Assembly: GCF_902506295.1 (NCBI RefSeq)
Contig: NZ_LR733312.1
Coordinates: 2,060,089 to 2,124,088, forward strand
From: Luteimonas sp. 9C
GTDB taxonomy: Bacteria > Pseudomonadota > Gammaproteobacteria > Xanthomonadales > Xanthomonadaceae
Length of the DNA: 64,000 nt
Direction of reading: 5' to 3'
Positions within the stretch are counted from its first letter, which is position 1. Each line of letters begins with the position of its first letter. This document shows, one piece after another, positions 42,805-63,783 of the stretch. A program made the position numbers and the translations under genes. The notes beneath the pieces are model-generated. The model had not been told where the DNA came from and did no database searches. It saw only the letters and a program-made list of their open reading frames with translations.

Positions 42805-43169
42805 GGGGGACTAGGGCCGGAAAGCGGTGCGCGGAGCGTAGCGACCGGCCATGACTTTGCCAATCGCGCACAGGCGTCCAGCGGGCGCCGCATTCACGCC
42901 ACAGGCCCTATGGACGCGCACCGGATGCTGCGCTGCAGCGCAATTCTGCAGATGGCGCGACGATGGCCGCGTCCGGGCGGGCCATGCACCAGACCGCGGC
43001 GCCTTCGAATTGACAGCGTTGTCAGCCACTCGGTACAACCCAGTCCGCGGTGCCGTCCGGTGTCGCGTCCGGATCTGGGAGGGTCAGGGATGTCGTCGAC
43101 GCGCCTGGCGCGAACGGCGGACGCGGCAGGTGCCGCGCCGCCCGCTCACCGGTGGACTGCCGTGCGCAC
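42805..43169. other. 365-nt intergenic stretch with an orphan operator/promoter
   Basis: No supported gene. It contains the 14-bp operator TGACAGCGTTGTCA (43011-43024), the reverse complement of the sites before the TonB receptor and the GH3 gene. On the plus strand TTGACA (43010-43015), an 18-nt spacer and TACAAC (43034-43039) form a promoter-like pair overlapping it. Further on, a GGGAGGG Shine-Dalgarno-like run precedes an ATG at 43090. That ATG opens only a 67-codon frame running antisense into the GH92 gene, with no recognisable product. The layout resembles the leader of the TonB receptor at 51876-51986. Confidence 0.55.
43011..43024 (+). promoter_or_regulatory. LacI-type operator, orphan copy
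   Basis: TGACAGCGTTGTCA, exactly the reverse complement of the 14-mers at 51877 and 61094. One mismatch from a perfect palindrome. It overlaps the -35 box of a rightward promoter candidate with no gene downstream on that strand. Confidence 0.65.
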
Positions 43170-45536: not shown

Positions 45537-45546
45537 CACATCCTCG

Positions 45547-45671: not shown

Positions 45672-46751
45672 ATGTCCTCGACCCGACGCGTGACCCTGGC
45701 CGACATCGCGGCCGCCTGCGGACTGTCCAAGGCGACGGTCTCGATGGTGCTGCGCGACAACCCGCAGGTGCATCCCGACACCCGCGCCCGGGTGCGCGCC
45801 GAACTGGCGCGGCAGGGCTACGTCTACCACCGCGGCGCGGCCAGCCTGCGCCATGGCGGGACGTCGAACGCGGTGGCCCTGGTGGTCAACGATCTGGCCA
45901 ATCCGTTCTTCGCCGAGTTCGCCGCCGGCGTGGACGCCGCGCTGGCCGAAGCCGGTCACGTGCTGCTGCTCGGCAGCACCGGCGAATCGGTCGAACGCCA
46001 GCAGGCGGTCCTGGCGTCCCTGGTCGAGCACGGTCCCGCCGCCCTGATCCTCTCGCCGGCCGAACACAGCAGCGCCGCACGGCTGCGCCGGATCTGCGGA
46101 CCGCGCCTGCCGGTGCTGCTGTTCAACCGCACGCTCGACGACGGCGGCGCCGGCGACTGGGACTACCTGGCGCTCGACAACCACGCCGGCGCACGCCTGG
46201 CCACGGAGCATCTGCTGGCGCAGGGGCATCGCGCGATCGCGTTCTTCGGCGGCCATCGCGAGTCGAGTTCCTGCGGCGAACGTCGCGCCGGCTATCGCGC
46301 GGCCCTGGCGGATGCCGGCATCGCGCCCGACCCCGCCTGGCTGATCGAATGCGCCCCCACGCGCCTCGAAGCCGCACGCCAGACGCCGGCGCTGTTCGCG
46401 CGCGACCCCGCGCCGACCGCGGCGGTCTGCTACAACGACGCCGTCGCGCTGGGCCTGATCGCCGGCCTCGCTGGCTGCGGGCGCCGCGCCGGACATGATT
46501 TCTCGGTCACCGGCTTCGACGACATCGCCGAAGCCGCCTTCGCCTCGCCGCCGTTGACCACCGTCGCCACCGACCCACGCGCTCGCGGCCTGCAGGCTGC
46601 GCGCCTGGTGCTTGCGCGGCTGCGCGGCGAATTGCCCGAACCGCCCCACTCCACCACCGCCCCCGTGGCGCTGCAGGTCCGTGCCAGCACGGCCGCCGCG
46701 TCCGACACCCCCGCCCAACCGCCCGCCCGGGCCCGAGGTAGCGCCGCATGA
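45672..46751 (+). CDS. LacI-family transcriptional regulator of the mannose operon
   Basis: DNA-binding repressor of 359 residues. The N-terminal HTH and hinge are canonical: VTLADIAAACGLSKATVSMV, then LARQGYVYHRGAASLRHG. The periplasmic-binding-protein-like ligand domain follows (AVALVVNDLANPFFAEFAAG, VTGFDDIAEAAFASPPLTTV). A Pro/Ala-rich tail of about 30 residues ends the protein. It is the first gene of a five-gene operon in which each junction is a 4-nt overlap. Inferred to bind the two GAACCGG operators in the divergent region and to respond to mannose or a mannoside. Confidence 0.93.
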   Translation: MSSTRRVTLADIAAACGLSKATVSMVLRDNPQVHPDTRARVRAELARQGYVYHRGAASLRHGGTSNAVALVVNDLANPFFAEFAAGVDAALAEAGHVLLLGSTGESVERQQAVLASLVEHGPAALILSPAEHSSAARLRRICGPRLPVLLFNRTLDDGGAGDWDYLALDNHAGARLATEHLLAQGHRAIAFFGGHRESSSCGERRAGYRAALADAGIAPDPAWLIECAPTRLEAARQTPALFARDPAPTAAVCYNDAVALGLIAGLAGCGRRAGHDFSVTGFDDIAEAAFASPPLTTVATDPRARGLQAARLVLARLRGELPEPPHSTTAPVALQVRASTAAASDTPAQPPARARGSAA

Positions 46752-48058
46752 ATCCGTCCAGCCGCACGATGTCCAATCCCGCCGCGATCGCGGTGGTCAG
46801 CCTGATCTTCTTCACCTGGGGCGGGCTGACCAGTCTCAACGACGTGCTGATCCCGCATCTCAAAGCCGTGTTCTCGATGAACTACACGCAGACGCTGCTG
46901 ATCCAGTTCACGTTCTTCGGCGCGTACTTCCTGATGTCGATGCCGGCCGGCGCCGTCGTCGCGCGCGTGGGCTACAAGGCGGGCATCGTCATCGGCCTGG
47001 TGATCGCGGCGATCGGCGCGGCGCTGTTCTATCCCGCCGCGCGCCTGCCCTCGTATCCGGTGTTCCTGACCGCGCTGTTCGTGCTGGCCAGCGGCATCAC
47101 GCTGCTGCAGGTCGCGGCCAATCCGTACATCAGCCTGCTCGGCCGGCCGGAGACCTCGCACAGCCGCCTCAACCTCGCGCAGGCGTTGAACTCGCTGGGC
47201 ACGACGGTCTTCCCGCTGCTGATCGGTCCGCTGATCCTGGTGGGCGCGGTGCTCGGCGCCGACGAGATCGCGGCGATGGGCGCGGCCGAACAGATCGCCT
47301 ACCGCGCCGCCGAGGCACGCTCGGTCGAAATGCCCTATCTGCTGTTGTCCGGGGGCCTGCTGCTGGTGGCGGTGTTCGTGCTGCTGATGCGCATTCCGTC
47401 GCTGCGCGAATCCACCGAAGCCAGCCCGGCCGTGCATCACACCTACCTCGAAGCCCTGCGCACGCCGCATCTGCGCTGGGGCGTGCTGGGCATCTTCTGC
47501 TACGTCGGCGCGGAGGTCGCGATCGGCAGCTTCCTGATCAATTACATGGCCGAGCCCGCGATCGGTGGCCTCAGCGAAGCGGCAGCCTCGCGCTTCCTGG
47601 CGTTCTACTGGGGCGGCGCGATGGTGGGCCGCTTCATCGGCGCGGCGCTGATGACGCGCATCGACGCGCGCAAGCTGCTCGGCTTCGCCGCGGGCATGGT
47701 CTGCCTGCTGCTGATCATCACGATGAGCACCACCGGCCAGGTCGCGATGTGGAGTGCGCTGGCGATCGGCCTGTTCAACTCGATCATGTTCCCGACCATC
47801 TTCACCACCGCGATCGAACGCCTGGGCACGCTGACCAGCAAGGCCTCGAGCCTGCTGGTCATGGCGATCGTCGGCGGCGCGATCATCCCGCTGGTGCAGG
47901 CGGCTTTCGCCGATGGCATCGGCATCCAGCATTCCTACTTCGTGCCGCTGGTCTGCTACCTCTACATCATCTGGTACGGCCTGCGCGGCTCGCGTCTGAG
48001 CGGCGCAGCGCTGACCGCGGCCGACGTGCCGGCACCGCGCCCGGGTGCAATGCATTGA
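46748..48058 (+). CDS. FucP-type MFS sugar transporter (probable mannose/fructose uptake)
   Basis: Inner-membrane sugar:proton symporter of 436 residues with twelve predicted helices. FucP-branch features: FFTWGGLTSLNDVLIPHLK near the N-terminus, GITLLQVAANPYISLLGRPE, SRLNLAQALNSLGTTVFPLL, and the second-half FYWGGAMVGRFIGAALM. Start ATG at 46748 makes ATGA with the lacI stop. Within this operon the expected cargo is mannose released by GH92/GH47, although relatives carry fucose, glucose, galactose or N-acetylglucosamine. Confidence 0.92.
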   Translation: MNPSSRTMSNPAAIAVVSLIFFTWGGLTSLNDVLIPHLKAVFSMNYTQTLLIQFTFFGAYFLMSMPAGAVVARVGYKAGIVIGLVIAAIGAALFYPAARLPSYPVFLTALFVLASGITLLQVAANPYISLLGRPETSHSRLNLAQALNSLGTTVFPLLIGPLILVGAVLGADEIAAMGAAEQIAYRAAEARSVEMPYLLLSGGLLLVAVFVLLMRIPSLRESTEASPAVHHTYLEALRTPHLRWGVLGIFCYVGAEVAIGSFLINYMAEPAIGGLSEAAASRFLAFYWGGAMVGRFIGAALMTRIDARKLLGFAAGMVCLLLIITMSTTGQVAMWSALAIGLFNSIMFPTIFTTAIERLGTLTSKASSLLVMAIVGGAIIPLVQAAFADGIGIQHSYFVPLVCYLYIIWYGLRGSRLSGAALTAADVPAPRPGAMH

Positions 48059-49044
48059 GAACGGCCGGCGCACGCGGCGTCGTCGCCTGCTTCGGCGAGG
48101 CGCTGATCGATTTCCGCGCCGAGCATGCCGACGACGGCACGCGCCGCTTCGTCGAGCAGCCGGGCGGCGCACCGGCCAATGTCGCGGTCGGCGTGGCGGT
48201 GCTTGGCGGCCGGGCGCGCTTCATCGGCATGCTGGCGCAGGACATGTTCGGTGATGCGCTGCAGGCCGCGCTCGTCGTCCGCGGCGTGGATGTCTCGCAG
48301 GTGCGCCGGACCGCCGACGCGCCGACCGCGCTGGCGTTCGTGGCGCTGGCCGAGGACGGCGAACGCAGCTTCAGTTTCTACCGGCCCCCGGCCGCGGACC
48401 TGCTGTTCCAGTCCAGCGATTTCGTCGAGAACGCCTTCGACGATGTCGCCGTGCTGCACGTGTGTTCGAACAGCATGACCGCGCCCGCGATCGCGGCGAC
48501 CACGCTGGAGGCAATGACGCGCGCGGCGCAGGCGGGCGCGCTGGTGAGCCTGGATCTCAACCTGCGGCCCGCGCTGTGGCCGCGCGCCGTGGATCCCACG
48601 CCGACGCTGTGGCAGGCGCTGGCGGCAGCGCAGCTGGTCAAGCTCAGCGCCGAGGAGTTCGCATTCCTGACCGCCGATGGCGACCCGGCAGACACGGTGC
48701 GTCGCATGCTGGCCGGCGCGACGCAGGCGGTGCTGGTCACCGACGGCGCCGCGCCGATGCGCTGGTGGACACGCGGGCGCGCCGGGACCGCTGGCACGTT
48801 CGAGGTCGAGGCGATCGACACCACCGCCGCCGGCGATGCATGCGTGGCCGGCCTGCTGCACTGCCTGGTCGCGCGCGGTATCGACGGCGGGCGCCTCGCC
48901 GCCGCATTCGAGGATGACGCGACCCGCGAGGACCTGCTGCGTCATGCGGCCGCCGCCGGTGCGCTCGCCACCACGCGTCACGGCGCCTTCGAGGCGATGC
49001 CGACTGCGGCGGCGCTGGCCACCCTGCTGGAGACCGCCCGTTGA
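48055..49044 (+). CDS. PfkB-family sugar kinase (probable fructokinase)
   Basis: Ribokinase/PfkB kinase of 329 residues. N-terminal CFGEALIDF and the FVEQPGGAPANVAVGVAVLG substrate motif are typical of fructokinases. The C-terminal signature is IDTTAAGDACVAGLL, with the catalytic Asp retained; the anion-hole motif reads AAGD instead of the usual GAGD. Start is a TTG at 48055 that forms TTGA with the transporter stop; no ATG gives the conserved N-terminus. In this operon it would phosphorylate fructose produced by the AGE-family isomerase to fructose 6-phosphate. Activity on mannose is an alternative. Confidence 0.88.
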   Translation: MRTAGARGVVACFGEALIDFRAEHADDGTRRFVEQPGGAPANVAVGVAVLGGRARFIGMLAQDMFGDALQAALVVRGVDVSQVRRTADAPTALAFVALAEDGERSFSFYRPPAADLLFQSSDFVENAFDDVAVLHVCSNSMTAPAIAATTLEAMTRAAQAGALVSLDLNLRPALWPRAVDPTPTLWQALAAAQLVKLSAEEFAFLTADGDPADTVRRMLAGATQAVLVTDGAAPMRWWTRGRAGTAGTFEVEAIDTTAAGDACVAGLLHCLVARGIDGGRLAAAFEDDATREDLLRHAAAAGALATTRHGAFEAMPTAAALATLLETAR

Positions 49045-50339
49045 ACCTGCCCGCCTCGCCCGTACCGGACTTCTTGACCGAGGCCACGCTGCGCGCGCAC
49101 ATCGCCGACACGATGGCGTTCTACCACCCGCGTGCGATCGACCCCGACGGCGGCTTCTTCCACTATTTCCGCGACGACGGCAGCGTCTACGACCGCGGCC
49201 ACCGCCATCTCGTCAGCAGCACCCGCTTCGTCTACGACTATGCGATGGCCGCGATCGAGTTCGCCGATGCGCCGCAGGCGGACGCGTGGCGGGATGCCGC
49301 GATGCACGGCCTGCACTTCCTGCAGACGGTCCACCGCGACCCCGGGCGCGGTGGCTACGCGTGGACGCTGCGGGACGGCGCGATCGAAGACGACACGCGT
49401 CACAGCTATGGCCTGGCCTTCGTGCTGCTGGCCTGCGCGAGCGCGTGCAAGGCCGGGCTGCCGACGCGAGCGTGGATGGACGAGACCTGGGATCTGCTCG
49501 AGCGTCATGCCTGGGATGCGGACGCGGGCCTGTACCGCGACGAGGCCGATGCACAGTGGCGCTACAGCGGCTATCGCGGGCAGAACGCGAACATGCACCT
49601 GTGCGAGGCGCTGATCGCCGCGCACGAGGCCGGCGGCGATGCACGCTATCTGCGACGCGCGCTGCAGGTGGCCGACCACATGACGCGCCGTCAGGCGGCG
49701 TTGTCGGGCGGCCTGGTGTGGGAGCACTGGCACGCGGACTGGTCGGTCGACTGGGACTACCACCGCGACGATCCCAATCACCTGTTCCGGCCGTGGGGTT
49801 TCCAGCCCGGGCACCAGATCGAATGGGCGAAGCTGCTGCTGTCGCTGCGCGCGCACCTAGGTGCCGCCGCGCCGGACTGGCTGCTGCCCACCGCGCGCCA
49901 CCTCTACGACACCGCACTCGCCCACGGCGGGGATGCCGAGCACGGCGGCATCGTCTACGGCTTCGCGCCGGAGTCGCTGCGCGACGCCTCGCCCGCGCCC
50001 GGTGCGCCGCCACCGGATCTCGCCCGCGCACCGATGTTCTGGTGCGACGACGACAAGTATTTCTGGGTGCAGGCCGAAGCGATCGCGGCCGCCTGGCGCC
50101 TGTTCGATGCGACCGGCGACGCGCGCTATCGCGACGACTACCTGCGCCTGTGGGCGTACGCATGGCGGCACTTCGTCGACCACACCCACGGCGCGTGGTT
50201 CCGCATCCTCGACCGTCACAACCGCAAGCTCGACGACCTCAAGAGCCCCGCGGGCAAGACCGACTACCACACCATGGGCGCCTGCCACGACGCGCTCGCG
50301 GTGATGCGCGGCGTCCACACCCGGAGCATCGACACATGA
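49041..50339 (+). CDS. AGE-family sugar epimerase/isomerase (probable mannose isomerase)
   Basis: (alpha/alpha)6-barrel protein of 432 residues of the N-acylglucosamine 2-epimerase superfamily. Visible family features: GGFFHYFRDDGSVYD, SSTRFVYDYAMA, RHSYGLAFVLLA, QNANMHLCEALIAAHEA, and the C-terminal His-containing GKTDYHTMGACHDA. The RxxNxNMHxxE-type segment is typical of YihS/mannose isomerases, which interconvert mannose and fructose, more than of GlcNAc epimerases. Its place between a fructokinase-like gene and an alpha-mannosidase supports that reading. Start TTG at 49041 overlaps the kinase stop (TTGA). Confidence 0.9.
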   Translation: MNLPASPVPDFLTEATLRAHIADTMAFYHPRAIDPDGGFFHYFRDDGSVYDRGHRHLVSSTRFVYDYAMAAIEFADAPQADAWRDAAMHGLHFLQTVHRDPGRGGYAWTLRDGAIEDDTRHSYGLAFVLLACASACKAGLPTRAWMDETWDLLERHAWDADAGLYRDEADAQWRYSGYRGQNANMHLCEALIAAHEAGGDARYLRRALQVADHMTRRQAALSGGLVWEHWHADWSVDWDYHRDDPNHLFRPWGFQPGHQIEWAKLLLSLRAHLGAAAPDWLLPTARHLYDTALAHGGDAEHGGIVYGFAPESLRDASPAPGAPPPDLARAPMFWCDDDKYFWVQAEAIAAAWRLFDATGDARYRDDYLRLWAYAWRHFVDHTHGAWFRILDRHNRKLDDLKSPAGKTDYHTMGACHDALAVMRGVHTRSIDT

Positions 50340-51802
50340 GTCTTGCGCGCTCGCGCTTCCGCCGACGGTCCGTCGCCATCGCATTCGCCGCCTGCACTGC
50401 GCTGTTCGCCGGTTGTGCGTCGACGGCGCCGGCCGCGCAGACCGCCATCCCGCGGACCGTCGTGTACGTCGCGCCAGGGGCGCAACGCCGCCTCGACGCC
50501 AACGGCGCGGACGCGGCGATGGCCGCCCGCGTCAAGGCGGAATTCCTGCACGGCTGGAACGGCTACAAGACCTACGCCTGGGGCCGCGATGCACTCAAGC
50601 CGCTGTCGAACACCGGCAGCGACTGGTACGCCGAGTCGCTGCTGATGACGCCGGTCGATGCACTCGACACCTTGCTGGTCATGGGCCTGACCGACGAGGC
50701 CGATGCGGCGCGTGAGCTGATCGCCACGCAGCTGTCCTTCGACAAGGACCTCGACGTCAAGCATTTCGAGATCGTGATCCGCCTGCTCGGTGGACTGTTG
50801 TCGGGTTACCAGATGACCGGCGACGCGCGCCTGCTCGCGCTGGCCGACGATCTCGGCACGCGCCTGCTGCCCACGTTCGATTCGCCGACCGGCCTGCCCT
50901 ACGTCACCGTCAACCTGCGCACCGGCGCGACCAGCGGCACCGACAGCAATCCGGCCGAGTCCGGCACGCTGCTGCTCGAGTACGGCACGCTGGCCCGCCT
51001 GACCGGCAAGCAGATCTACTGGGACAAGGCCTGGCGCGCGCTCGAGGCGACCTACGCGATGCGTTCGCCGATCGGCCTGGTCGGCGAACGCTTCGATGTC
51101 GAGACCGGCCAGTGGACGCAGACCCGCACCCACGTCGGCGCGCGCATCGACTCCTATTACGAGTACCTGTGGAAGTGCTGGCAGCTGTTCGCCGAGCCGC
51201 GCTGCAAGACCATGTGGGACACGCACATCGCCGCGCTCAATACCCATGTCGCCGACGAGGTCGACGGCGCGCTGTGGTACGGACACGTCGACATGGCCAC
51301 CGGGGCGCGCATCGCGTCGCGGTTCGGCGCCCTCGACGCCTTCTTCCCCGGGCTGCTCGCCGTCTCCGGCGATGTGGACCGCGCCGCCCGCCTGCAGCAC
51401 TCGGCGTTTTCGATGTGGCAGGCCCATGGCATCGAACCGGAAGTCTGGGATTACCGCGCCCGCACCGTCGTGTCGCCCGGCTACCCGCTGCGGCCGGAAA
51501 TCGTGGAATCGGCCTGGTACCTGTATCGCCTGACCGGTGACCCGGCCTGGCGCGACATGGGGCGCACGCTGCTTGACGACTTCGTGCGTCACACGCGCAC
51601 CAGGTCCGGCTTCGCGGCGCTCGCCGACGTGGTCACCAAGACCCGGAAGGACGAGATGGAAAGCTTCGTGCTGGCCGAGACCTTCAAGTATTTCTACCTG
51701 CTCTATGCCGATCCGGCGACGCTCGACCCCGCGCACACGGTGCTCACCACCGAAGCGCATCCGCTCCGCGCGGTGCCGCCGCCCGCCCCCCGTCGCAGAT
51801 GA
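50336..51802 (+). CDS. GH47 family alpha-mannosidase, lipoprotein
   Basis: Inverting alpha-1,2-mannosidase family best known from the eukaryotic ER and Golgi, where it trims high-mannose N-glycans. 488 residues. The N-terminus is a lipoprotein signal with lipobox FAGC (CTALFAGCAST, Cys about 26). GH47 motifs in order: FLHGWNGYKTYAWGRDALKP, SLLMTPVDALDTLLVMGLTD, FEIVIRLLGGLLSGY, GARIDSYYEYLWKCW, LRPEIVESAWYLYRLTGD, ESFVLAETFKYFYLLY and LTTEAHP near the end, whose Thr coordinates calcium. Start ATG at 50336 overlaps the isomerase stop (ATGA); last gene of the mannose operon. No terminator is seen before the TonB receptor promoter. Confidence 0.94.
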   Translation: MSLARSRFRRRSVAIAFAACTALFAGCASTAPAAQTAIPRTVVYVAPGAQRRLDANGADAAMAARVKAEFLHGWNGYKTYAWGRDALKPLSNTGSDWYAESLLMTPVDALDTLLVMGLTDEADAARELIATQLSFDKDLDVKHFEIVIRLLGGLLSGYQMTGDARLLALADDLGTRLLPTFDSPTGLPYVTVNLRTGATSGTDSNPAESGTLLLEYGTLARLTGKQIYWDKAWRALEATYAMRSPIGLVGERFDVETGQWTQTRTHVGARIDSYYEYLWKCWQLFAEPRCKTMWDTHIAALNTHVADEVDGALWYGHVDMATGARIASRFGALDAFFPGLLAVSGDVDRAARLQHSAFSMWQAHGIEPEVWDYRARTVVSPGYPLRPEIVESAWYLYRLTGDPAWRDMGRTLLDDFVRHTRTRSGFAALADVVTKTRKDEMESFVLAETFKYFYLLYADPATLDPAHTVLTTEAHPLRAVPPPAPRRR

Positions 51803-51875: not shown

Positions 51876-51904
51876 TTGACAACGCTGTCAACCTGACTTC
51901 CAAT
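51876..51904 (+). promoter_or_regulatory. TonB receptor promoter with embedded LacI-type operator
   Basis: TTGACA (51876-51881), a 17-nt spacer and TCCAAT (51899-51904, 4/6). The operator TGACAACGCTGTCA (51877-51890) covers most of the -35 box, so a bound repressor would block RNA polymerase. About 80 nt upstream of the receptor ATG. Confidence 0.65.
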
Positions 51905-51985: not shown

Positions 51986-54900
51986 ATGAAGCGATTGCAC
52001 GCCGCGCCGAAGAAGCGGCTTCTCACGTCCGCGCTGTTGTTCGCGCTCGCGCCGCCGCTGGCCGCGCAGGTGGCCGAACCGGCGACCGACAGCCCCGATG
52101 CGACCACGCTCGATGCGGTCACCGTGACCGGTATCCGCGGCAGCCTCGAGTCGTCGATGAACCTCAAGCGCGACGCCCGCGGCATCGTCGACGGCATCAT
52201 CGCCGAGGACATCGGCAAGTTCCCCGACACCAACCTGGCCGAGTCGCTGCAGCGCATCTCCGGTGTCTCGATCGACCGCAGCGCGATCGGCGAAGGCTCG
52301 CGGGTGACCGTGCGCGGCGTCGGCCCCGACTTCAACCTGGTGCTGCTCAACGGCCGCCAGATGCCCGCATCGAGCAACGGCGACGGCAGCACCGTCTCCA
52401 ACTCGCGCGCCTACGACTTCGCCAACATCGCCTCCGAGGCGATCTCCGCGGTCGAGGTCTACAAGAGCGGCCGCGCGGAAACCCCGACCGGCGGCATCGG
52501 CGCGACGATCAACATCAAGACCGCGCGTCCGCTCGACAATCCGGGCTTCCGGGCGAACGTCGGCCTCAAGGGCGTCTACGACACCTCGCTCGACAATCTG
52601 CCCGACCAGTTCAAGGGCAGCTCGGTCACGCCGGAAGTCTCGGGCATCTTCAGCACGACCAGCGCCGACGGCCGTTTCGGCATCGCGGTGACGGGCAGCT
52701 ACCAGGAACGCGACCTGGGCTACAACCAGGTTTCGGTGCCGGGTGGCTGGCGCGGTTTCCGCGGCGACGAGGAGAACTGGGGCGCGATCCCGCAGCCCGG
52801 CGCGCCGGGTTCGGAAAACATCGTCAACCGGCCCGGCCCGGACGACGTGTATTCGGTGCCGCAGAACCTCAACTACGCCGTCACCGGCGTGCAGCGTCAG
52901 CGCACCAACGGCCAGGTGGTGCTGCAGTGGGCGCCGACCGACGCCATCACCACGACGCTCGACTACACGTACTCCGAAAACAAGATCCAGCAGCAGCGCA
53001 ACGACATGTCGGTGTGGTTCAACTACGGCCCGTCGTCGTCGTCGTGGACCGACGGCCCGGTGGCGGCGCCGCTGCTCTACACCGAGTTCCTGCCCTTCGC
53101 CTGCAGCGATGCCGGCGTGTGCCGCGGCGCGGATCTCGCGATGGGCGGCGCGGACATCGCCAACCGCAACGAGAACAAGTCGCTCGGCTTCAACGTCGAG
53201 TGGGAAGCGACCGACAACCTCGGTTTCGAGCTCGACGTGCACAAGTCGACGGCCGAAACCAGCCCCGACAGCCCCTACGGCTCGGGCGGCACGCTGGGCA
53301 CGGCCGCGTTCATCCGCGGCAACACCACCGCCGACTTCAGCGGCGATTTCCCGATCCTGACCGTGCAGTACCCGCCGGGCTACACCGGTCCGCGCGCCTC
53401 CGACATGCTGGTCACCGGCTCGGTGTTCCACCGCAGCTACATGAAGTCGGAGATCGAGCAGGTCCAGGCCCGCGGCCACTTCAAGTTCGGCGACTACTCG
53501 CGCCTGGATTTCGGTGTGGCGGCGACGGAAGCCAACAACCGCACCGCCTACGGCAACGTGCAGCGCGACAACACCTGGGGCGGCGCGGAAGGCAGCGCCG
53601 AGGACTATCCGGACAACATCTGGATCCCGGGCAACATGGCCGACTACTTCGACGCGTTCGCCGGCAGCGGCAACCCGGCGTTCACCGACGGCTTCTACAT
53701 GTTCGACTTCAAGACCGTGCGCGATCTCGCCGCGCAGTTCGCCGGTGACGAGTCGCTGTATCTCGCGCCCGCGACCTACAACACCGACCGGCGCGTCACC
53801 GAGAAGTCGAAGAGCGCCTACGTCCAGATCAGCTCGAGCTGGGACATCGGCATCCAGTTGAACGCGGCGGCCGGCGTGCGTTACGAGAAGACCGACGTCA
53901 CCTCGTCAGCGCTCGTGCCCGTCGCCACGGCGCTGCTGTGGGAATCCAACAACGAGATCGGCATCCAGCGCGAAGGCTCCGACTTCACCACGCTCTACGG
54001 CGACTACGCGCACTGGCTGCCCAGCATCGACCTCAGCGCCGAGCTGACCGACAGCCTGGTGCTGCGCAGCAGCTACAGTCGCACGATCGGCCGTCCCGGC
54101 TGGGGCGACATCCAGGGCGGGCAGACGCTCAACGAACCGGTGCGCATCGACGGCGGCACCGGCCAGCAGGGCAATCCGGGGCTCGAGCCGCTCAAGGCCG
54201 ACAACTTCGATCTGTCGCTGGAGTGGTACTACGCCGAAGCCAGCTACCTGTCGTTCGGCTATTTCCAGAAGAACATCGACAACTACATCGGCACGACGAT
54301 CATCCAGGCGACGCCGTTCGACCTGACGACGCCGATCGGGGGCGCGTACTGGAACGCCGCCGTGGCCAATGCCTGCCCGACGACCGACCTGACCTGCATC
54401 CGCAACTACATCTTCACCAACTTCGACGGCCAGCCCGGCGTGGTGCGCGGTCCGAACGACGCGGGCGGCAATGCGACGGGCACGATCACCGGCCAGCCGG
54501 GCGATCCGATCGCGAACTTCCGCATCACCACGCCCGCCAACACCGGCTCGTCGAAGCTCGACGGCCTGGAGCTCAACCTCCAGCACGTGTTCGGCGACAG
54601 CGGTTTCGGCCTGGCGGCGAACTACACCTATGTCGACAGTCCAGACCTGAACTACGACAACGCCAACCTTGGCGGCCAGTTCGCGCTGGTGGGCCTGAGC
54701 GATTCGGCCAACCTGGTGGCGTTCTACGACAAGGGTGCGTGGCAGGCGCGTGCGGCCTACAACTGGCGCGACAAGTTTCTGTCCAGCGGTTTCGACAGCG
54801 AACGGCCCAATCCGGTGTACGTCGAGGAGTACGGCCAGCTCGACGTCAGCGTGGGCTACAAGGTGACCGACAACCTCACCGTGCAGGCCGAGGCGATCAA

Positions 54901-55006
54901 CGTGACCGACGAGACCCAGCGCACCCACGGACGCAACGCACGCCAGCTGCTGTACGGCACCCAGACCGGCCCGCGCTACATGTTCGGCGTCAGGTACACG
55001 TTCTGA
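51986..55006 (+). CDS. TonB-dependent outer-membrane receptor (TIGR01782 type)
   Basis: Outer-membrane substrate importer of 1006 residues driven by TonB-ExbBD. Signal peptide about 1-28, TonB box LDAVTVTG at about 42-49, plug domain to about 190 (RDARGIVDGIIAEDIGKFPD, TNLAESLQRISGVSIDR, VRGVGPDFNLVLLNGRQMP), then a long beta-barrel ending in the aromatic RYMFGVRYTF. The sequence belongs to the Xanthomonas/Caulobacter receptor subfamily that commonly serves complex carbohydrates. The ATG at 51986 follows a GGGAGGGGAG. A strong hairpin and the halogenase/SapC/cupin genes follow. The operator shared with the GH3 gene suggests that a beta-glucoside oligomer may be the cargo; a mannose-containing glycan is the alternative from its left neighbours. 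Confidence 0.95.
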   Translation: MKRLHAAPKKRLLTSALLFALAPPLAAQVAEPATDSPDATTLDAVTVTGIRGSLESSMNLKRDARGIVDGIIAEDIGKFPDTNLAESLQRISGVSIDRSAIGEGSRVTVRGVGPDFNLVLLNGRQMPASSNGDGSTVSNSRAYDFANIASEAISAVEVYKSGRAETPTGGIGATINIKTARPLDNPGFRANVGLKGVYDTSLDNLPDQFKGSSVTPEVSGIFSTTSADGRFGIAVTGSYQERDLGYNQVSVPGGWRGFRGDEENWGAIPQPGAPGSENIVNRPGPDDVYSVPQNLNYAVTGVQRQRTNGQVVLQWAPTDAITTTLDYTYSENKIQQQRNDMSVWFNYGPSSSSWTDGPVAAPLLYTEFLPFACSDAGVCRGADLAMGGADIANRNENKSLGFNVEWEATDNLGFELDVHKSTAETSPDSPYGSGGTLGTAAFIRGNTTADFSGDFPILTVQYPPGYTGPRASDMLVTGSVFHRSYMKSEIEQVQARGHFKFGDYSRLDFGVAATEANNRTAYGNVQRDNTWGGAEGSAEDYPDNIWIPGNMADYFDAFAGSGNPAFTDGFYMFDFKTVRDLAAQFAGDESLYLAPATYNTDRRVTEKSKSAYVQISSSWDIGIQLNAAAGVRYEKTDVTSSALVPVATALLWESNNEIGIQREGSDFTTLYGDYAHWLPSIDLSAELTDSLVLRSSYSRTIGRPGWGDIQGGQTLNEPVRIDGGTGQQGNPGLEPLKADNFDLSLEWYYAEASYLSFGYFQKNIDNYIGTTIIQATPFDLTTPIGGAYWNAAVANACPTTDLTCIRNYIFTNFDGQPGVVRGPNDAGGNATGTITGQPGDPIANFRITTPANTGSSKLDGLELNLQHVFGDSGFGLAANYTYVDSPDLNYDNANLGGQFALVGLSDSANLVAFYDKGAWQARAAYNWRDKFLSSGFDSERPNPVYVEEYGQLDVSVGYKVTDNLTVQAEAINVTDETQRTHGRNARQLLYGTQTGPRYMFGVRYTF

Positions 55007-55022
55007 TTTCCACCACCCCCCG

Positions 55023-55049
55023 GGCGCCGCGGCTCCATGCCGCGGCGCC
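55023..55049 (+). terminator. Strong hairpin between receptor and first halogenase-like gene
   Basis: Perfect 11-bp GC-only stem (55023-55033 with 55039-55049, loop TCCAT) 17 nt after the receptor stop. Only a short T-run follows (GTTTCC). It likely attenuates transcription or protects the receptor mRNA 3' end, giving more receptor than downstream enzymes. Confidence 0.55.
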
Positions 55050-55103
55050 GCGTTTCCGCAGGGCCCGCGCTGACAGGCGGGCCGCTGCTGCGAGTCCGTC
55101 GCG

Positions 55104-56657
55104 TTGAGTCGTCCGCTCCGTCATGTCGTCGTCCTCGGCGGCGGTTCCGCCGGCTGGCTGACCGCGGCGCTGCTGGCCGCCGATCACGACGGCGCATCGC
55201 CCGGCGGCCTGCGCGTGACCCTGATCGAATCGCCGGACGTGCCGACCATCGGCGTGGGCGAAGGCACCTGGCCGACGATGCGCGACACGCTGCGCCGCAT
55301 CGGCGTGTCGGAAACCGACTTCGTGCGCGCCTGCGATGCGACCTTCAAGCAGGGTTCGAAGTTCGTGCGCTGGACCCGGGACACGGCCGACGACCACTAC
55401 CACCACCCGTTCGTGCTGCCACAGGGCTACCACGATGCGGATCTCGTCGCGGGCTGGATGCGCCGCGGCGACGTGCCGTTCGACCGGCTGGTGAGCTTCC
55501 AGCCGCAACTGTGCGATGCCGGGCGCGCGCCCAAGCAGTTCGGCACGCCCGAGTACGCCGCGGTCGCGAATTACGCCTACCACCTCGATGCGGCCAAGCT
55601 GGGCATCTTCCTGCGGGCGCACTGCACGGAGCGGCTCGGCGTCCGGCTGGTGTCGGACCATGTCGACGGCATCGACGTCGACGACACCGGCGACATCGCC
55701 GCATTGCGCACCCGCGCGCACGGGGCGATCGACGCCGACCTGTTCGTCGACTGCACCGGCATGCGGGCGTTGCTGATCGGCCAGCATTACGGCATCGACA
55801 GGACGGACTGCCGCGACATGCTGTTCAACGATCGCGCACTGGCGCTGCAGGTGCGCTATCCGCATGCCGACACGCCGATCGCCTGCCAGACCGTGTCGAC
55901 CGCGCAGGCCAACGGCTGGATCTGGGATATCGGCCTGTCGGCGCGGCGCGGCGTAGGCCATGTCTATTCCAGCGCGCATACCGATGCCGACGCGGTCGAA
56001 GCCGCCCTGCACCGCTACATCCGCGAGACCGGCGGCGCGGACTGCGAGATCATCGCCCGACAGTCGCTGTCGTTCGAACCCGGCTACCGGCGGCGCAGCT
56101 GGCACCGCAACTGCGTGGCGATCGGCCTGTCGAGCGGGTTCGTCGAACCACTGGAGGCGTCCTCGCTGGTGCTGGTGGAACTGGCGGCGACGATGCTCAG
56201 CGACCAGCTGCCGGCCACGCGCGAGACGATGGACGTCGTGGCCGCGCGCTTCAACGACACGTTCGCCTATCGCTGGGAACGCGTGATCGAGTTCCTCAAG
56301 CTGCACTACGTGCTGTCGCAGCGCGACGACAGTGCCTACTGGCGCGACCATCGCGACGCCGCGTCGATGCCCGCGCGCCTGGCCGAACTCCTGGCACTGT
56401 GGCGGCACCAGTCGCCGTCGCGCTATGACCTGCCGCGCGTGGACGAGGTGTTTCCCTCCGCCAGCTGGCAGTACATTCTCTACGGCATGGGATTCCAGCC
56501 CGGGACGCGCGCCACCTCGCGGCGCGCAGCGCCCGCGGATCGTGCCGAGGCGGCGTTCCGCGAAGCCTCGGATCTCGCGCGCAGGATGATTCCGGCGCTG
56601 CCCAGCCACCGCGAACTGATCCACCACATCCATACCCGGGGCCTGTCCCCCGTCTAG
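55104..56657 (+). CDS. Flavin-dependent tryptophan-halogenase-like protein, divergent active-site motif
   Basis: FADH2-dependent halogenase fold of 517 residues. The FAD-binding GGGSAG is at 12-17, VGEGTWPTM at about 51-59, and the Lys equivalent to the halogenase catalytic lysine in ATFKQGSKF (Lys 82). The FIEPLES-type region reads GFVEPLEASSLVLVE. The second halogenase signature WxWxIP is altered to WIWDIG (270-275), with Gly for Pro. Start TTG at 55104. Genes like this accompany TonB receptors in Xanthomonas, Caulobacter and Sphingomonas; no product is established to my knowledge, and tryptophan as substrate is only the family name. Confidence 0.9.
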   Translation: MSRPLRHVVVLGGGSAGWLTAALLAADHDGASPGGLRVTLIESPDVPTIGVGEGTWPTMRDTLRRIGVSETDFVRACDATFKQGSKFVRWTRDTADDHYHHPFVLPQGYHDADLVAGWMRRGDVPFDRLVSFQPQLCDAGRAPKQFGTPEYAAVANYAYHLDAAKLGIFLRAHCTERLGVRLVSDHVDGIDVDDTGDIAALRTRAHGAIDADLFVDCTGMRALLIGQHYGIDRTDCRDMLFNDRALALQVRYPHADTPIACQTVSTAQANGWIWDIGLSARRGVGHVYSSAHTDADAVEAALHRYIRETGGADCEIIARQSLSFEPGYRRRSWHRNCVAIGLSSGFVEPLEASSLVLVELAATMLSDQLPATRETMDVVAARFNDTFAYRWERVIEFLKLHYVLSQRDDSAYWRDHRDAASMPARLAELLALWRHQSPSRYDLPRVDEVFPSASWQYILYGMGFQPGTRATSRRAAPADRAEAAFREASDLARRMIPALPSHRELIHHIHTRGLSPV

Positions 56658-56666
56658 GCGAGCCCG

Positions 56667-57374
56667 ATGTCCAGGACCGTGCAACTCAACAACGTCGACC
56701 ACCGGGACCTCCGCGTCGACACCGGCCATGGCGCCACGCTCGGCGACGACGTGATGTGGGCGCTCACGTTTCCGGCGGAATTCCGCAACGTGCAGGCGCA
56801 CTATCCGATCGTGTTCGGCAAATCGGCCGAAGGGGACTTCCAGCCGCTGGCGCTGTTCGGCTTCACCGACCGGCAGAACCTGTTTCTCGACGGCGACCGC
56901 TGGGATGCGACCTACATTCCGCTCACGATCGAACGCCAGCCGTTCCTGATCGGACGCGCCGCCGATGAGATGCTGATGCACATCGATCTCGACCACCCGC
57001 GCGTCGGCAGCACGCGGGGCGAAGCCCTGTTCCTGCCGCACGGCGGCACGAGCGCGTTCCTCGAACACGCGAGCTCCGTGCTCAACACCATCCACCAGGG
57101 CGTGCAGGCCACGGCGCCGTTCGTGGCCGCGTTGCTGCAGCACGATCTGCTCGAGCCTTTCGTGCTCGACATCCGCCTTGACGACGGCTCCGACAATCGC
57201 CTGTCGGGCTACTACACGGTCAACGAGGACCGCCTGCGCCAGCTCGACGGCGACGCCTTCTCGGCGCTGGGCCGGGCCGGTCACCTGGAAGCGGTCTACA
57301 TGATGCTGGCGTCCGTAGTCCGCTTCCGCGACCTGATCGAGCGGGTGAACCGTGCCGGCGCTGCAGGTCGATAA
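56667..57374 (+). CDS. SapC family protein
   Basis: Protein of 235 residues of the SapC family, named after a Campylobacter S-layer-locus protein; biochemical function unknown. Recognisable blocks: WALTFPAEFRNVQAHYPIVF, FQPLALFGFTDRQNLFLDGD, WDATYIPLTIERQPFLIG, and the C-terminal GHLEAVYMMLASVVRFRDLI. No signal peptide, so cytoplasmic. Start ATG at 56667, 9 nt after the halogenase stop; its 3' end overlaps the cupin gene by 23 nt. It recurs with the same partners near TonB receptors in other Proteobacteria. Confidence 0.93.
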   Translation: MSRTVQLNNVDHRDLRVDTGHGATLGDDVMWALTFPAEFRNVQAHYPIVFGKSAEGDFQPLALFGFTDRQNLFLDGDRWDATYIPLTIERQPFLIGRAADEMLMHIDLDHPRVGSTRGEALFLPHGGTSAFLEHASSVLNTIHQGVQATAPFVAALLQHDLLEPFVLDIRLDDGSDNRLSGYYTVNEDRLRQLDGDAFSALGRAGHLEAVYMMLASVVRFRDLIERVNRAGAAGR

Positions 57375-58380
57375 GCGCATCCCGGAGCGCACGGGGATCG
57401 ATCCCCGCGCGATTCCGGACGCCGTGCTGCGCTCGGAGACGCCGCTGGTGCTGCGCGGGCTGCTGTCCGAGTGGCCTGTCGTGCAGGCGGCGCGGACGTC
57501 GTCCGACGCGGCCGCGCAGTATCTGCAGCGTTTCGAACGCGTGGATGGCCCGCCGGTCATCGCGACGGTCGGCCCGCCGGAGATCGACGGCCGCTTCTTC
57601 TACGACGACACCCTGCAAGGCTTCAACTTCCGCCGCGAACACGTGCCGCTCGGTGTCGCGCTGAAGACGCTGCTCAAGTACGCACCCGATCCCGCGCCGC
57701 CGGCGATCTACATCGGCTCGACCACCCTCGACACCTGGCTGCCGGGCTTCCGCACCGAAAACGACCTGCCGCTCGGCGGGCGCGACGCGCTCGCCAGCAT
57801 CTGGATCGGCAACCGCACGCGCATCGCCGCGCACCAGGACCTGCCCGACAACCTCGCCTGCGTGGTCGCGGGCACGCGGCGCGCGACGCTGTTTCCGCCG
57901 CAGCAGCTCGAGAATCTTTACATCGGTCCGCTCGAGGTCACCCCGGCCGGGCAGGCGGTGAGCCTGGTCGATTTCGCCGACGTCGACCATGCGCGGTTTC
58001 CGCGCTTCGCGCAGGCGCAGGCACAGGCGCAGTACGCCGATCTCGAGCCGGGCGATGCGCTGTTCATCCCCAGCATGTGGTGGCACCACATGGAAGCGCA
58101 GACCACCTTCAACGTGCTGGTGAACTACTGGTGGCGCCAGGCGCCCGCCTGGGCCACCACGCCTATGGATACCTTGATGCACGCGATCGCGAGCATCCGC
58201 GACCTGCCCGACGCCGAGCGCGCGATCTGGCGCGACGTGTTCCGTCATTACGTCTTCGACTACGACGAAGACATCGTCGCCGGCCATGTGCCGGCCCCGG
58301 CGCGCGGTGCGCTGGCACCGCTCGACGAGACGCGCGCACGCGCGATCCGGGCCCGCCTGCGCAAGCGCTTCGAACGCTAG
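57352..58380 (+). CDS. Cupin-like / JmjC-type protein (putative Fe(II)/2-oxoglutarate oxygenase)
   Basis: Protein of 342 residues of the cupin_8 family, whose characterised members are JmjC-type protein hydroxylases. The iron triad is visible: HQD at residues 161-163 (IAAHQDLPDNLACVVAG) and a distal His in IPSMWWHHMEAQ (about 245). RRATLFPPQQLENLYIGP is the typical strand after the first metal ligands. N-terminal TPLVLRGLLSEWPVVQAA is the family's opening motif. Start GTG at 57352, inside the SapC gene. Predicted cytoplasmic. A hydroxylase acting on a protein, peptide or the same small molecule as the halogenases is inferred; the substrate is unknown. Confidence 0.9.
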   Translation: MPALQVDKRIPERTGIDPRAIPDAVLRSETPLVLRGLLSEWPVVQAARTSSDAAAQYLQRFERVDGPPVIATVGPPEIDGRFFYDDTLQGFNFRREHVPLGVALKTLLKYAPDPAPPAIYIGSTTLDTWLPGFRTENDLPLGGRDALASIWIGNRTRIAAHQDLPDNLACVVAGTRRATLFPPQQLENLYIGPLEVTPAGQAVSLVDFADVDHARFPRFAQAQAQAQYADLEPGDALFIPSMWWHHMEAQTTFNVLVNYWWRQAPAWATTPMDTLMHAIASIRDLPDAERAIWRDVFRHYVFDYDEDIVAGHVPAPARGALAPLDETRARAIRARLRKRFER

Positions 58381-58390
58381 GAGATCGTCC

Positions 58391-59896
58391 ATGCATGCAG
58401 CCGCCGAACCGGCCCCATCGCCCATCCGCCGTGTCGTCATCGCCGGCGGCGGCACCGCCGGCTGGATGGCCGCGGCCGCCCTGTCGCGCACCCTGGGCAA
58501 GGTGATCGATGTCACCCTGGTGGAGTCGGACGAGATCGGCACGATCGGCGTGGGCGAGGCGACGATCCCGACCCTGATGACGTTCCATCGCCTGCTCGGC
58601 ATCGGCGAGCAGGAATTCATGGCGCAGACCCAGGCCACGATCAAGCTCGGCATCAACTTCGAGAGCTGGCGCGACGTCGGCCAGGACTATTTCCATTCCT
58701 TCGGCCTCACCGGCACCGACCACTGGACGGCCGGCTTCCAGCACTTCTGGATGCGCGGCCGCGAGCGCGGCCTGGCCAGCGCCTACGACGACTACTGCCT
58801 GGAACTGAAGGCGGCGCTTGACGGGCGCTTCGCCCACCTGCCCAAGCGCAAGCTCAACTACGCCTACCACCTCGATGCGACGTTGTATGCGCGCTACCTG
58901 CGGCGTTTCAGCGAGGCCAACGGCGCGCGCCGCATTGAGGGCAAGATCGCGGACGTCGCCACCGACCCCGCATCGGGCTGCATCACCGCGCTGCAGCTCG
59001 AGAACGGCACGCGCGTCGAAGGCGATTTCTTCATCGACTGCACCGGTTTCCGCGCGCTGCTGATCGAGAAGACGCTCGGCGTCGGATTCGAGGACTGGTC
59101 GCACTGGCTGTTCAACGACCGCGCGTTCGCGGTACCCACGGCCACGGTCCGCGACGCGGTGCCCTACACCCGTTCGATCGCCGGCCCGGCCGGCTGGCAG
59201 TGGCGTATTCCGCTGCAGCATCGCGTCGGCAACGGCATCGTCTATTCGAGCCGCTACATGGACGACGACCAGGCCCGCGACACGCTGCTGTCGAGCATCG
59301 ACGGCGCGCCGCTGCGCGAACCGTTCGCGGTGCGCTTCCGTCCCGGCCAGCGCCTGCGCTACTGGGAGAAGAACTGCGTAGCGCTGGGCCTGTCTGCCAG
59401 CTTCATCGAACCGCTGGAATCCACGACGATCCACCTGATCCAGCGCGGCATCATCCACCTGATGCAGACCTTCCCGCGCACGCTGTCCCGGCCCGACATC
59501 GACCAGTACAACATGCGCATGGCCGACGAGCTGCAGCACGCGCGCGACTTCGTGATCCTGCACTTCAACGTCACCGACCGCCAGGACACGCCCTACTGGC
59601 GCGACTGCAGCGCGATGCCGATCCCCGATTCGCTGCGCCACCGCATCGAGCTGTTCCGCGAAACCGGGCGGGTGTTCCACGTTCCCACCGAACTGTTCGC
59701 GGAGAACTCCTGGATCCAGGTGATGATGGGCCAGGGCATCTATCCCCGGGAGTACCACCGCTCCGCGGACCTGATGGGCGACGCCGAACTCAAGGGATTC
59801 CTCGACGGCATCCGCCAGGACGTGGACCGCACGCTGCGCCAGTTGCCGCCGCACATGGAGTACGTGCGCAGCTACGCGCCTGCCGCAGGCGCCTGA
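58391..59896 (+). CDS. Flavin-dependent tryptophan-halogenase-like protein, canonical motifs
   Basis: Second halogenase paralogue, 501 residues. GGGTAG at 19-24, VGEATIPTL, the Lys equivalent to the catalytic lysine in ATIKLGINFESW (Lys 85), the second signature WQWRIP (269-274) intact, and SASFIEPLESTTIHLI near the FAD/chloride tunnel. Start ATG at 58391 has GGAG 6 nt upstream and lies 10 nt after the cupin stop. Unlike its paralogue at 55104 it retains every motif I can check, so it is the better candidate for genuine halogenation. The need for a flavin reductase partner is not met by any gene in the window. Confidence 0.92.
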   Translation: MHAAAEPAPSPIRRVVIAGGGTAGWMAAAALSRTLGKVIDVTLVESDEIGTIGVGEATIPTLMTFHRLLGIGEQEFMAQTQATIKLGINFESWRDVGQDYFHSFGLTGTDHWTAGFQHFWMRGRERGLASAYDDYCLELKAALDGRFAHLPKRKLNYAYHLDATLYARYLRRFSEANGARRIEGKIADVATDPASGCITALQLENGTRVEGDFFIDCTGFRALLIEKTLGVGFEDWSHWLFNDRAFAVPTATVRDAVPYTRSIAGPAGWQWRIPLQHRVGNGIVYSSRYMDDDQARDTLLSSIDGAPLREPFAVRFRPGQRLRYWEKNCVALGLSASFIEPLESTTIHLIQRGIIHLMQTFPRTLSRPDIDQYNMRMADELQHARDFVILHFNVTDRQDTPYWRDCSAMPIPDSLRHRIELFRETGRVFHVPTELFAENSWIQVMMGQGIYPREYHRSADLMGDAELKGFLDGIRQDVDRTLRQLPPHMEYVRSYAPAAGA

Positions 59897-59945: not shown

Positions 59946-60953
59946 TCAGCGCGGCGCCGGCCCCGTCGAGCGCCGGACCTGCAGGGCATAGGGCAGTTCC
60001 AGGGTCTCGCCGGCGCTGCGGTCGCGGATCGCCTTGAGCAGTTCCAGGCCGGCCAGCCGCCCCATCTCCCGGCTGGGCTGGCGCACGGTGGTCAGCGAGG
60101 GGTAGATGTGGCGCGCGATGGGCATGTCGTCGAAGCCGCAGACCGACACGTCCTTCGGCACCGACAGACCCCGCTCGCAGATCGCGCAGATCGCGCCCGC
60201 GGCCATGTCGTCGTTGGCGGCGAACACGGCGGTCGGCGGATCCGGCAGGTCGAGCAGGGTATTGGTCGCGTCGAAGCCGGATTCGTAGAAGAACTTGCCG
60301 GCGGCCACCAGCGAGGCGTCGTACTCGAGGCCGGCCTGCTTGAGACCGTCGCGATAGCCGGCCAAGCGCCAGCCGCTGGCGCCATGCGCCGGGTGGCCCT
60401 TGATGTGCGCGATGCGGCGATGGCCCAGACCGGCCAGGTGCAGCACGACATCGCGCGCCGCGCTGCGCTCGTCGACCACCGTGCCGATGCGCCGGTTGCG
60501 CTCCTGCGCCGACACGCTGGCGTAGGGCACGCCCATCTCGTCGAGGCGTGCGAGCAGTTTCGCGTCGTCGGTGATCGGCGGCGTCAGCACCACGCCGTCG
60601 AGCTGCGACTGCATGATCATCGACTCGACCTTGGCCACGATGTCCTTGGCCGTGTAGTCGACCGGCGCGAGCATCAGGTTGTAGTGCTGCGACTGGCACG
60701 CATCGAGCACGCCGAGCTCGACCTCCATGAGGTAGTTGCTCGACGGGTTGTCGTAGAGCATCGCGACCAGATACGACCGGCGGCCGGCGAGCAGGCGGGC
60801 CGACGCGAGCGGCCGGTACTGCAGCTTCTCGACCGCCGCCTCCACGGCCACGCGGGTGCGCTCCGACACGTTCGGCTCGTTGTTGAGCACGCGCGACACG
60901 GTCTTCATCGACACGCCCGCCGCTTCCGCGACATCCTCGATCCGCACACGCAT
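59946..60953 (-). CDS. LacI-family regulator of the GH3/TonB receptor genes
   Basis: Repressor of 335 residues with a canonical [34 protein letters not shown], then [17 protein letters not shown] hinge. The ligand domain includes [20 protein letters not shown] and [21 protein letters not shown] chose ATG 60953 (MRVRIEDV), the usual LacI N-terminus; ATGs 18-21 nt upstream remain possible. It is divergent from the GH3 gene. Because its HTH differs from the other LacI in the window and the operator TGACAACGCTGTCA lies in its own promoter region, it is the likely reader of that site. Confidence 0.93.
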
Positions 60954-61093
60954 GGTGTTCAATCCGGCCATCATCCGTCGTCCCGGTGGCGCATTCTGCC
61001 AGAGCGCACAGTGCATCATGCGGGATGTGAGCAGGGTCGATGACGCCCTGCAGCAAGCGTCGGCGGATGCGCACCGGTATGCTGGCCACTCGC

Positions 61094-61107
61094 TGACAAC
61101 GCTGTCA
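61094..61107 (+). promoter_or_regulatory. LacI-type operator between lacI and the GH3 gene
   Basis: TGACAACGCTGTCA, identical to 51877-51890. It lies 73 nt before the GH3 ATG and about 140 nt before the divergent lacI start. A TATGCT -10-like box (61078-61083) just upstream would place the operator over the early transcribed region of the GH3 gene. Confidence 0.65.
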
Positions 61108-61179
61108 TCGCTGCCCGGCAGCCTGGCGGCCCACCCACCCTGCGACGCACGTCGCCACCTCCTGCTCCGGAGCCCTTCG

Positions 61180-63783
<2,604 letters not shown>

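Follow-up and report, generated by a model that had tools for sequence, protein, structure and literature searches.

A receptor-linked cassette of flavin halogenase-like, SapC and cupin genes in Luteimonas sp. 9C, with possible oxidative tailoring of its TonB-dependent receptor

In Luteimonas sp. 9C, the gene of a TonB-dependent receptor (TBDR) is followed by genes for a flavin-dependent halogenase (FDH)-like protein, a SapC family protein, a cupin oxygenase and a second FDH; these five genes form the cassette described here. It lies in a stretch of 64,000 nucleotides of contig NZ_LR733312.1, hereafter the window, whose positions are used throughout. The cassette has the order TBDR-[HalA]-SapC-Cupin_8-HalB, and all its genes are on the plus strand. 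The receptor (51986..55006), of a cassette-associated clade of the TIGR01782 class, has the Pfam plug and barrel domains and scores 665 bits with TIGR01782. Its ATG at 51986 is preceded by GGGAGGGGAG, a plausible ribosome site, while the mechanical start of its open reading frame (ORF) is at 51941. HalA (55104..56657) has a TTG start and scores 392.8 bits with the Trp_halogenase profile PF04820; SapC (56667..57374) matches its family profile PF07277 with 230.4 bits, the cut-off being 28.9; the Cupin_8 protein (57352..58380), with a GTG start, scores 219.3 bits with PF13621; and HalB (58391..59896) scores 621.1 bits with PF04820. The receptor and HalA genes are separated by 97 nt, HalA and SapC by 9 nt, and the cupin and HalB by 10 nt, while SapC and the cupin overlap by 23 nt. 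The ORF coordinates and Pfam matches thus bear out the five same-strand genes, the order and the spacing given in the initial annotation. These intervals leave little room for the precursor gene of a ribosomally synthesized and post-translationally modified peptide, a statement on the cassette interior only, as no small-ORF search was made in the flanks. On a look at hydropathy only, the receptor has a signal peptide and none is evident on HalA, SapC, the cupin or HalB. The source genome has a single SapC match and a single Cupin_8 match, both at this locus, and three TIGR01782 receptors over the cut-off. The nearest named relative of the window SapC is at 89% (L120).

Residue conservation was assessed in a comparison set of 104 cassettes (114 full cassettes minus 10 duplicates; three loci whose receptors are broken or short, L128, L151 and L156, had already been excluded). 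In all 104, the cassette genes lie on a single strand, and HalA is present in 52. In HalB, G19, G21 and G24 are kept in 104/104, and K85 and E343 in 103/104, with one gap. The WxWxI motif is found in 103/104, and its final position is P in 85/104, including the window, where the full WxWxIP is present, and A in 14/104. HalA keeps GxGxxG, the catalytic Lys82 and Glu351 in 52/52 each. Its WxWxIP motif is altered, with Gly at the P position in 51/52 (WxWxIG) and Ala in 1/52, and it has E-A-S instead of E-S-T in 52/52. Because of these two variants, HalA, although FDH-like by sequence, may not be a standard halogenase.

The top solved match of HalB is Xcc4156 (6y1w; E 1e-227), and the HalB of a Xanthomonas arboricola cassette of this type aligns to it over 508 residues with 1022 bits. 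HalA has 2pyx, 9ltb and 9lu2 as top solved matches and shares the GWIWDIG and EPLEAS motifs with 2pyx, its closest solved relative, a structural-genomics halogenase of Shewanella frigidimarina. We found no published function for 2pyx, 9ltb or 9lu2; two papers name 2pyx, and none names 9ltb, 9lu2 or 9luq. According to the available parts of two reports, Xcc4156 and BrvH (6frl) are flavin-dependent brominases with crystal structures, in vitro activity and an unknown native substrate (PMC7336383, PMC5945002). A second FDH is described upstream of brvH (PMC5945002); here HalA is also upstream of HalB, but not adjacent to it. In those same parts, both reports treat the enzymes alone: PMC5945002 does not mention SapC or a receptor, and PMC7336383 names no genomic partner.

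In the cupin, H161, D163, R176 and H245 are kept in 104/104. The HxD...H triad and a basic residue at the 2-oxoglutarate-binding position assign it, by sequence, to the FIH-like Fe(II)-2-oxoglutarate oxygenases. Its nearest solved relatives are FIH, JMJD5 and JMJD7, which are protein hydroxylases, plus the RNA enzyme TYW5/C2orf60. The cupin shares with FIH an HxD...WWHH iron site, and where FIH has Lys214 it has another basic residue, Arg; the alignment spans only about 110 residues (158-267). The FAD motif, catalytic Lys and HxD...H that the initial annotation reported are all present and kept in relatives, with the qualification that the HalA variants bring. The name SapC derives from an S-layer gene. 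The AlphaFold2 model of the window SapC reached a mean pLDDT of 94.4 from 55 sequences; a Foldseek search with it gave no PDB match at E<=0.001 (383 matches at E<=10), and its sequence profile gave only three sigma-factor matches, at E of about 0.7-0.9.

SapC was found in 98 of 200 genomes sampled across the order (about 137 match rows). For the same-family sites and some of the others, 80 regions, mostly 20 kb long, were retrieved; with the window, they make 81 SapC loci. A cupin is present in 50 of these, and the 50 have a receptor in 49 cases, HalB in 49 and HalA in 9. L099, the one locus with no receptor, is truncated by the end of its contig, and the locus without HalB is L067. The other 31 have no cassette partner in the fetched stretch. 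Among the best 80 of 480 named relatives, a selected set nearest to the query SapC, the receptor is found at 75/80, the cupin at 78, HalB at 77, one of them a contig-end fragment, and HalA at 57; at the five without a receptor, SapC is less than 2 kb from the contig start. Named carriers include Luteimonas, Lysobacter, Pseudoxanthomonas, Xanthomonas, Stenotrophomonas, Steroidobacter, Massilia, Duganella and Paucibacter. The recurrence claimed in the initial annotation therefore stands for Xanthomonas (L139, L188), and for Caulobacter the control genome has a SapC match. Outside the order, two of six SapC sites fetched (L314, L317) have the complete five-gene order; at three SapC is alone, and at L316 it accompanies a partial FDH-like ORF.

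At loci where it stands alone, SapC has diverse neighbors: it lies between EF-G and a histidine kinase genes at L045, beside a large autotransporter-like protein at L074, and near RND efflux genes at L105; the lone class comprises these three and 28 other loci.

A receptor search over the same 200 genomes (47/200 at E<=1e-120) identified reduced versions of the cassette. The receptor is followed by the cupin only in eight genomes (G149, G062, G165, G163, G087, G072, G046 and G122) and by HalB only in G102, and the first receptor of L040 has none of the four partner genes behind it. G149, G163 and G046 have no PF04820 match genome-wide at E<=1e-40, and their sole Cupin_8 match at E<=1e-20 is the one behind the receptor; the other five cupin-only genomes have one FDH each, at a SapC cassette elsewhere. 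The cupin is missing from L153 and L157 (receptor-HalA-SapC-HalB), and HalB from L067/L181 (same contig), L176 and L183 (receptor-SapC-cupin). The receptor is present in every cassette version found and is thus the constant member. Two degraded copies were also observed: at L068:10497-14585 (G145), a decayed second cassette has a receptor and then SapC in two pieces, with the cupin and HalB not detected, and at L052 (G057:C21:483367-485305) an in-frame TAG interrupts HalB in an otherwise complete cassette.

FDHs also occur beside receptors of other families. At E<=1e-80, they are present in 35 of 60 family genomes, and 40 loci, chosen to cover matches outside the known cassettes, were fetched in addition to one of the source genome itself; the matches not included number at least four (one or more of G222, two of G224 and one of G223). 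The resulting 41 FDH loci include five SapC cassettes and 36 others. At 14 of these 36, a TBDR lies directly upstream on the same strand (gap of less than 300 nt, or overlap), of the Oar-like and TIGR01782 types according to our own profiles; at six, a TBDR is otherwise within about 4 kb; and at 16 none was detected. Ten large ORFs neighboring FDH loci were scanned, and no TBDR was found among them. An amylase is located beside the lone FDHs of L279 and L298.

In the source genome, a second receptor-FDH pair (L250:5929-10592; G000:C2, about 160.9-165.6 kb) consists of an Oar-like TBDR, which carries CarboxypepD_reg and OMP_b-brl_4 domains, and a flavin halogenase that follows it after 86 nt, with no SapC or cupin match at the locus. 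At L306 and L308, convergent FDH genes of different subtypes are 4 nt apart and about 4 kb from a TBDR.

The initial annotation proposed a single functional module and regarded genes scattered in relatives, with no conserved receptor association, as evidence to the contrary. The receptor at 49 of the 50 SapC-cupin loci and tight co-inheritance instead support a single receptor-tied module. The module is not an obligatory set: SapC is alone at 31/81 loci, single-enzyme versions exist, and similar FDHs stand behind TBDRs of other families, so the cassette is better described as modular. Over the 104 cassettes, pairwise distances correlate with those of the receptor at.942 for SapC,.934 for the cupin and.951 for HalB, values that include the species signal; within subtypes, the correlations are.75-.82 for type I (71 cassettes) and.73-.92 for type II (29). 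HalA correlates with the other members at.81-.89 (52 cassettes). At the two-cluster level, the receptor and HalB clusters match in 103/104. Against a profile that was itself made from cassette receptors, so that the contrast is partly by construction, cassette receptors reach 1022-1562 bits, and the remaining TIGR01782 receptors in the same seven genomes reach at most 418.

Residues of the receptor and SapC covary with the presence of HalA. In a tree-corrected test of dependent evolution on the 71 type I cassettes, covering 121 columns pre-selected by frequency difference and two post hoc motifs, the top likelihood ratio test (LRT) values were 28.5 for SapC residue 183, 25.7 for receptor residue 277 and 22.4 for receptor residue 279, followed at lower values by receptor residues 278 (16.5) and 283 (15.7). 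Simulated HalA histories were scored by the same top-three rule. Their receptor maxima had a mean of 13.8 and a top of 25.5 in 60 runs, and a mean of 12.7 and a top of 22.7 in 83 runs, while the SapC maxima had a mean of 10.7 and a top of 20.4 in 82 runs. The observed values were reached by 0/60 and 0/83 histories for the receptor, one of which came close, and by 0/82 for SapC. The clustering of the top receptor columns is unexceptional, as 6/60 simulations were as clustered. Receptor residues 277-280 (52769..52780, plus strand) read E-E-N-W in the window and E-N-N-W in the consensus. In the receptor model (mean pLDDT 81.4), positions 277-283 follow strand 231-250 and precede strand 294-315 (model numbering, minus 15), and by barrel topology the segment around 277-283 would be an extracellular loop.

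This covariation, which exceeds simulation, together with the single strand in 104/104 cassettes and the fixed gene order, argues against mere co-regulation, in which functionally unrelated redox enzymes would have been gathered in sugar-responsive operons. Such FDHs do occur in several carbohydrate loci, and the 16 non-cassette loci, out of 36, at which no TBDR was detected would suit that explanation; we consider it very unlikely.

Some receptor residues were considered as a HalB target or as markers of enzyme loss and rejected. Trp270 (P0001 numbering; codon 52748..52750, plus strand) is Trp in 109/109 full-cassette receptors and in the reduced ones. As a HalB target it fails, being kept in all eight cupin-only loci, in the HalB-only and no-HalB loci and in genomes without a strong FDH; a part in ligand binding or structure is more likely. 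For cupin loss, R618 is K, K and H in three of four cupin-less receptors versus R in 95.6% of the others, too weak a pattern with few events. For HalB loss, P231, A195, G602 and I716 are altered in the receptors that have only the cupin behind them, and P231 is altered in the orphan receptor of L040 as well; these changes are absent from the HalB-less L067, L176 and L183 and are likely due to shared ancestry.

The genes around the cassette point to carbohydrate uptake. Upstream lie a GH92 family protein (43170..45539, minus strand), a sugar transporter of the major facilitator superfamily (MFS; gluP/fucP type, 46748..48058, plus), a GlcNAc 2-epimerase family protein (49041..50339, plus) with a PfkB kinase upstream of it in ORF 46612-49044, and a GH47 glycosidase (50543..51802, plus; the Pfam-matched part of ORF 48677-51802). 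Downstream are an ORF with a LacI-family regulator in its residues of about 200-525 (59946..61538, minus) and an ORF with a GH3 glycosidase and an Exop_C domain (60856..63783, plus). The locus thus reads as one of mannan or N-glycan type. The LacI-type operator-like palindrome TTGACAACGCTGTCAA is located at 51876..51891 (plus strand), upstream of the receptor, with a two-mismatch copy at 61093-61108, between the genes of the LacI and GH3 domains; three such sites were found versus 0.6 expected, a number reached in 2/100 shuffles. The remaining one, a one-mismatch copy, is at 43010-43025, between a UPF0114 gene and GH92. In a search range that began 400 nt before the receptor ORF and ended 60 nt within it, we identified the LacI-type palindrome TGNNANCGNTNNCA at 88/104 receptors versus 0.3 expected from mononucleotide shuffles. 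Like the window, the CUT loci of Xanthomonas combine a TBDR with an inner-membrane sugar transporter, a regulator and glycosidases (Blanvillain 2007, PMC1790865), and the window locus belongs with them by this composition; unlike the window cassette, those loci come without any mention of halogenase, Sap, Pass1 or cupin in the main text of that paper.

This setting also recurs in relatives. In the fetched flanks, a GH3 like that of the window is found at 48/104 cassettes versus 0/31 lone SapC loci, LacI at 57/104 versus 1/31, and MFS at 23/104 versus 0/31; GH3 with an Exop_C domain lies beside L100, L113, L163, L185 and L073. The enzymes might therefore act on the cargo, by cytoplasmic detoxification or catabolism of the aromatic part of an imported glycan or glycoside, for example the aglycone of an aryl beta-glucoside. 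The GH3 and LacI counts favor such chemistry, as does the acceptance in vitro of free indole by BrvH (PMC5945002) and of indole derivatives by the Xcc enzymes (PMC7336383), as given in the available parts of those reports. Against it, the glycan type differs among loci, with GH92/GH47 in the window, GH94 at L102, a pullulanase beside L130, and amylase elsewhere; lone enzymes persist beside the receptor, unlike the members of a pathway; and no aromatic-ring enzyme was seen among 20 flanking ORFs scanned, which included one aldehyde dehydrogenase (L073). Cargo chemistry is in our judgment unlikely. The initial annotation had offered two guesses, modification of the receptor or another protein and modification of an aromatic group that the imported glycan carries; the first is the best available, though unproven, and the second is disfavored since related FDHs occur in mannan-, beta-glucoside- and amylase-type loci and single enzymes persist alone.

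The operator-like site upstream of the receptor and the in vitro bromination of indole by relatives (PMC7336383, PMC5945002, in the parts available) would also fit a halogenated or hydroxylated small molecule of indole type that reports glycan uptake or acts on neighbors. Such a diffusible signal needs no fixed linkage to one receptor clade, the cassette holds no biosynthetic partner, and receptor-cupin-only versions exist; we give this idea the least credence of those weighed here.

The reading that we favor, quite possible though still short of probable, is that the cassette carries out oxidative tailoring of the receptor polypeptide before export, within a LacI-controlled carbohydrate-uptake locus. 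A cytoplasmic set that follows one receptor through losses, together with receptor and SapC residues that covary with HalA, is more in keeping with modification of the receptor before export than with a small-molecule pathway. HalA, SapC, the cupin and HalB would act on the receptor polypeptide while it is newly made and still in the cytoplasm, prior to Sec export. HalB and, where present, HalA would add a halogen or hydroxyl group to the side chain of an aromatic residue (Trp or Tyr), and the FIH-like cupin would hydroxylate a different side chain, while SapC would present the receptor to the enzymes as their dedicated adaptor or chaperone. HalA may act in, or recognize, the extracellular receptor loop at about 277-283, and each modification would tune receptor stability or ligand grip. 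Such modifications would be separately losable, which would explain the reduced cassettes.

A precedent for this chemistry is QhpG, which the available text of PMC7876137 describes as an FDH-like flavoprotein that acts in the cytoplasm on a peptidyl Trp of a protein exported later. By analogy, it shows that an FDH-like flavoprotein can modify an exported protein. QhpG, LodB and GoxB are flavoprotein maturases of quinone-cofactor enzymes. The FDH-like structure of QhpG (PMC7876137, same text) is a point of resemblance to the cassette enzymes, which differ in that they keep the FDH catalytic Lys. The same cytoplasmic logic (PMC7876137) would equally serve another target, either a different exported protein of the uptake locus, such as a glycosidase or lipoprotein, or a surface polymer, the receptor being merely co-regulated. 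The constant neighbor, at 49/50 loci, is the receptor and not a glycosidase (GH3 at 48/104), which makes another target quite unlikely, even with the S-layer origin of the SapC name in its favor.

Several observations weigh against tailoring of the receptor. We know of no observed modified receptor, although no search aimed at one was made. The solitary occurrence of SapC at 31/81 loci shows that it has a separate role outside the cassette. The QhpG profile NF049967 (cut-off 240) gave only 44.8 for HalA and 27.7 for HalB. HalA changes only about six times on the tree by parsimony, so that the covariation is based on few independent events, and other columns also score high with HalA, namely receptor 365 (18.4), HalB 250 (17.1) and SapC 52 (16.9). 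Trp280 tracks HalA poorly, being found in.87 of HalA-carrying versus.50 of HalA-less receptors, and the presence of any Trp in the loop gives an LRT of only 10.3. Four HalA-carrying Duganella receptors (L162, L171, L173 and L182) are without the loop segment, and the post hoc loop motif is missing in 8/49 receptors with HalA and kept in 1/22 without it. The cargo could drive both the receptor loop and HalA. Trp270 is not diagnostic because Trp is also found in 8/19 control receptors, and no receptor residue cleanly tracks the loss of HalB or the cupin.

The statement of the initial annotation that no nonribosomal peptide synthetase or polyketide synthase gene is nearby was checked on 20 window ORFs, none below 29.4 kb, and stands for these. 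Genes for a beta-ketoacyl-ACP synthase and for FDH/CmlS-like flavoproteins lie about 7-20 kb past the right edge of the window (L253:6787-11321, L254:25-999), perhaps as an aryl-polyene type pigment cluster.

In the literature, we found no openly licensed PMC paper that combines at least three of halogenase, SapC, cupin and TonB, nor one that joins tryptophan halogenase, SapC and TonB-dependent receptor. The cassette genes are not mentioned in the main text of the Shewanella and microbial-mat sugar papers. Two apparent leads were set aside: in one paper searched, "SapC" alongside TonB-dependent receptors is the name of a clay, and the paper found for the Nix/nag loci, considered as a known name for the cassette genes, concerns glycosidases and mentions neither halogenase nor SapC.

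SapC itself has a confidently modeled fold with no solved relative found, and a phylum-wide sample of 199 genomes has it in 67. The finding of an Xcc4156-type enzyme in a receptor-linked cassette, together with the natural versions that have lost single enzymes, opens the question of its native substrate to direct mass spectrometry. We tentatively propose, as a possibility more doubtful than tailoring of the receptor as such, a new kind of bacterial protein maturation, in which an outer-membrane nutrient receptor would bear halogen and/or hydroxyl groups installed before export by a co-traveling cassette, and the native substrate of Xcc4156/BrvH-type brominases would be the receptor polypeptide, not a small molecule. 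If true, halogenation or hydroxylation of the receptor would add an extra chemical layer to bacterial nutrient uptake.

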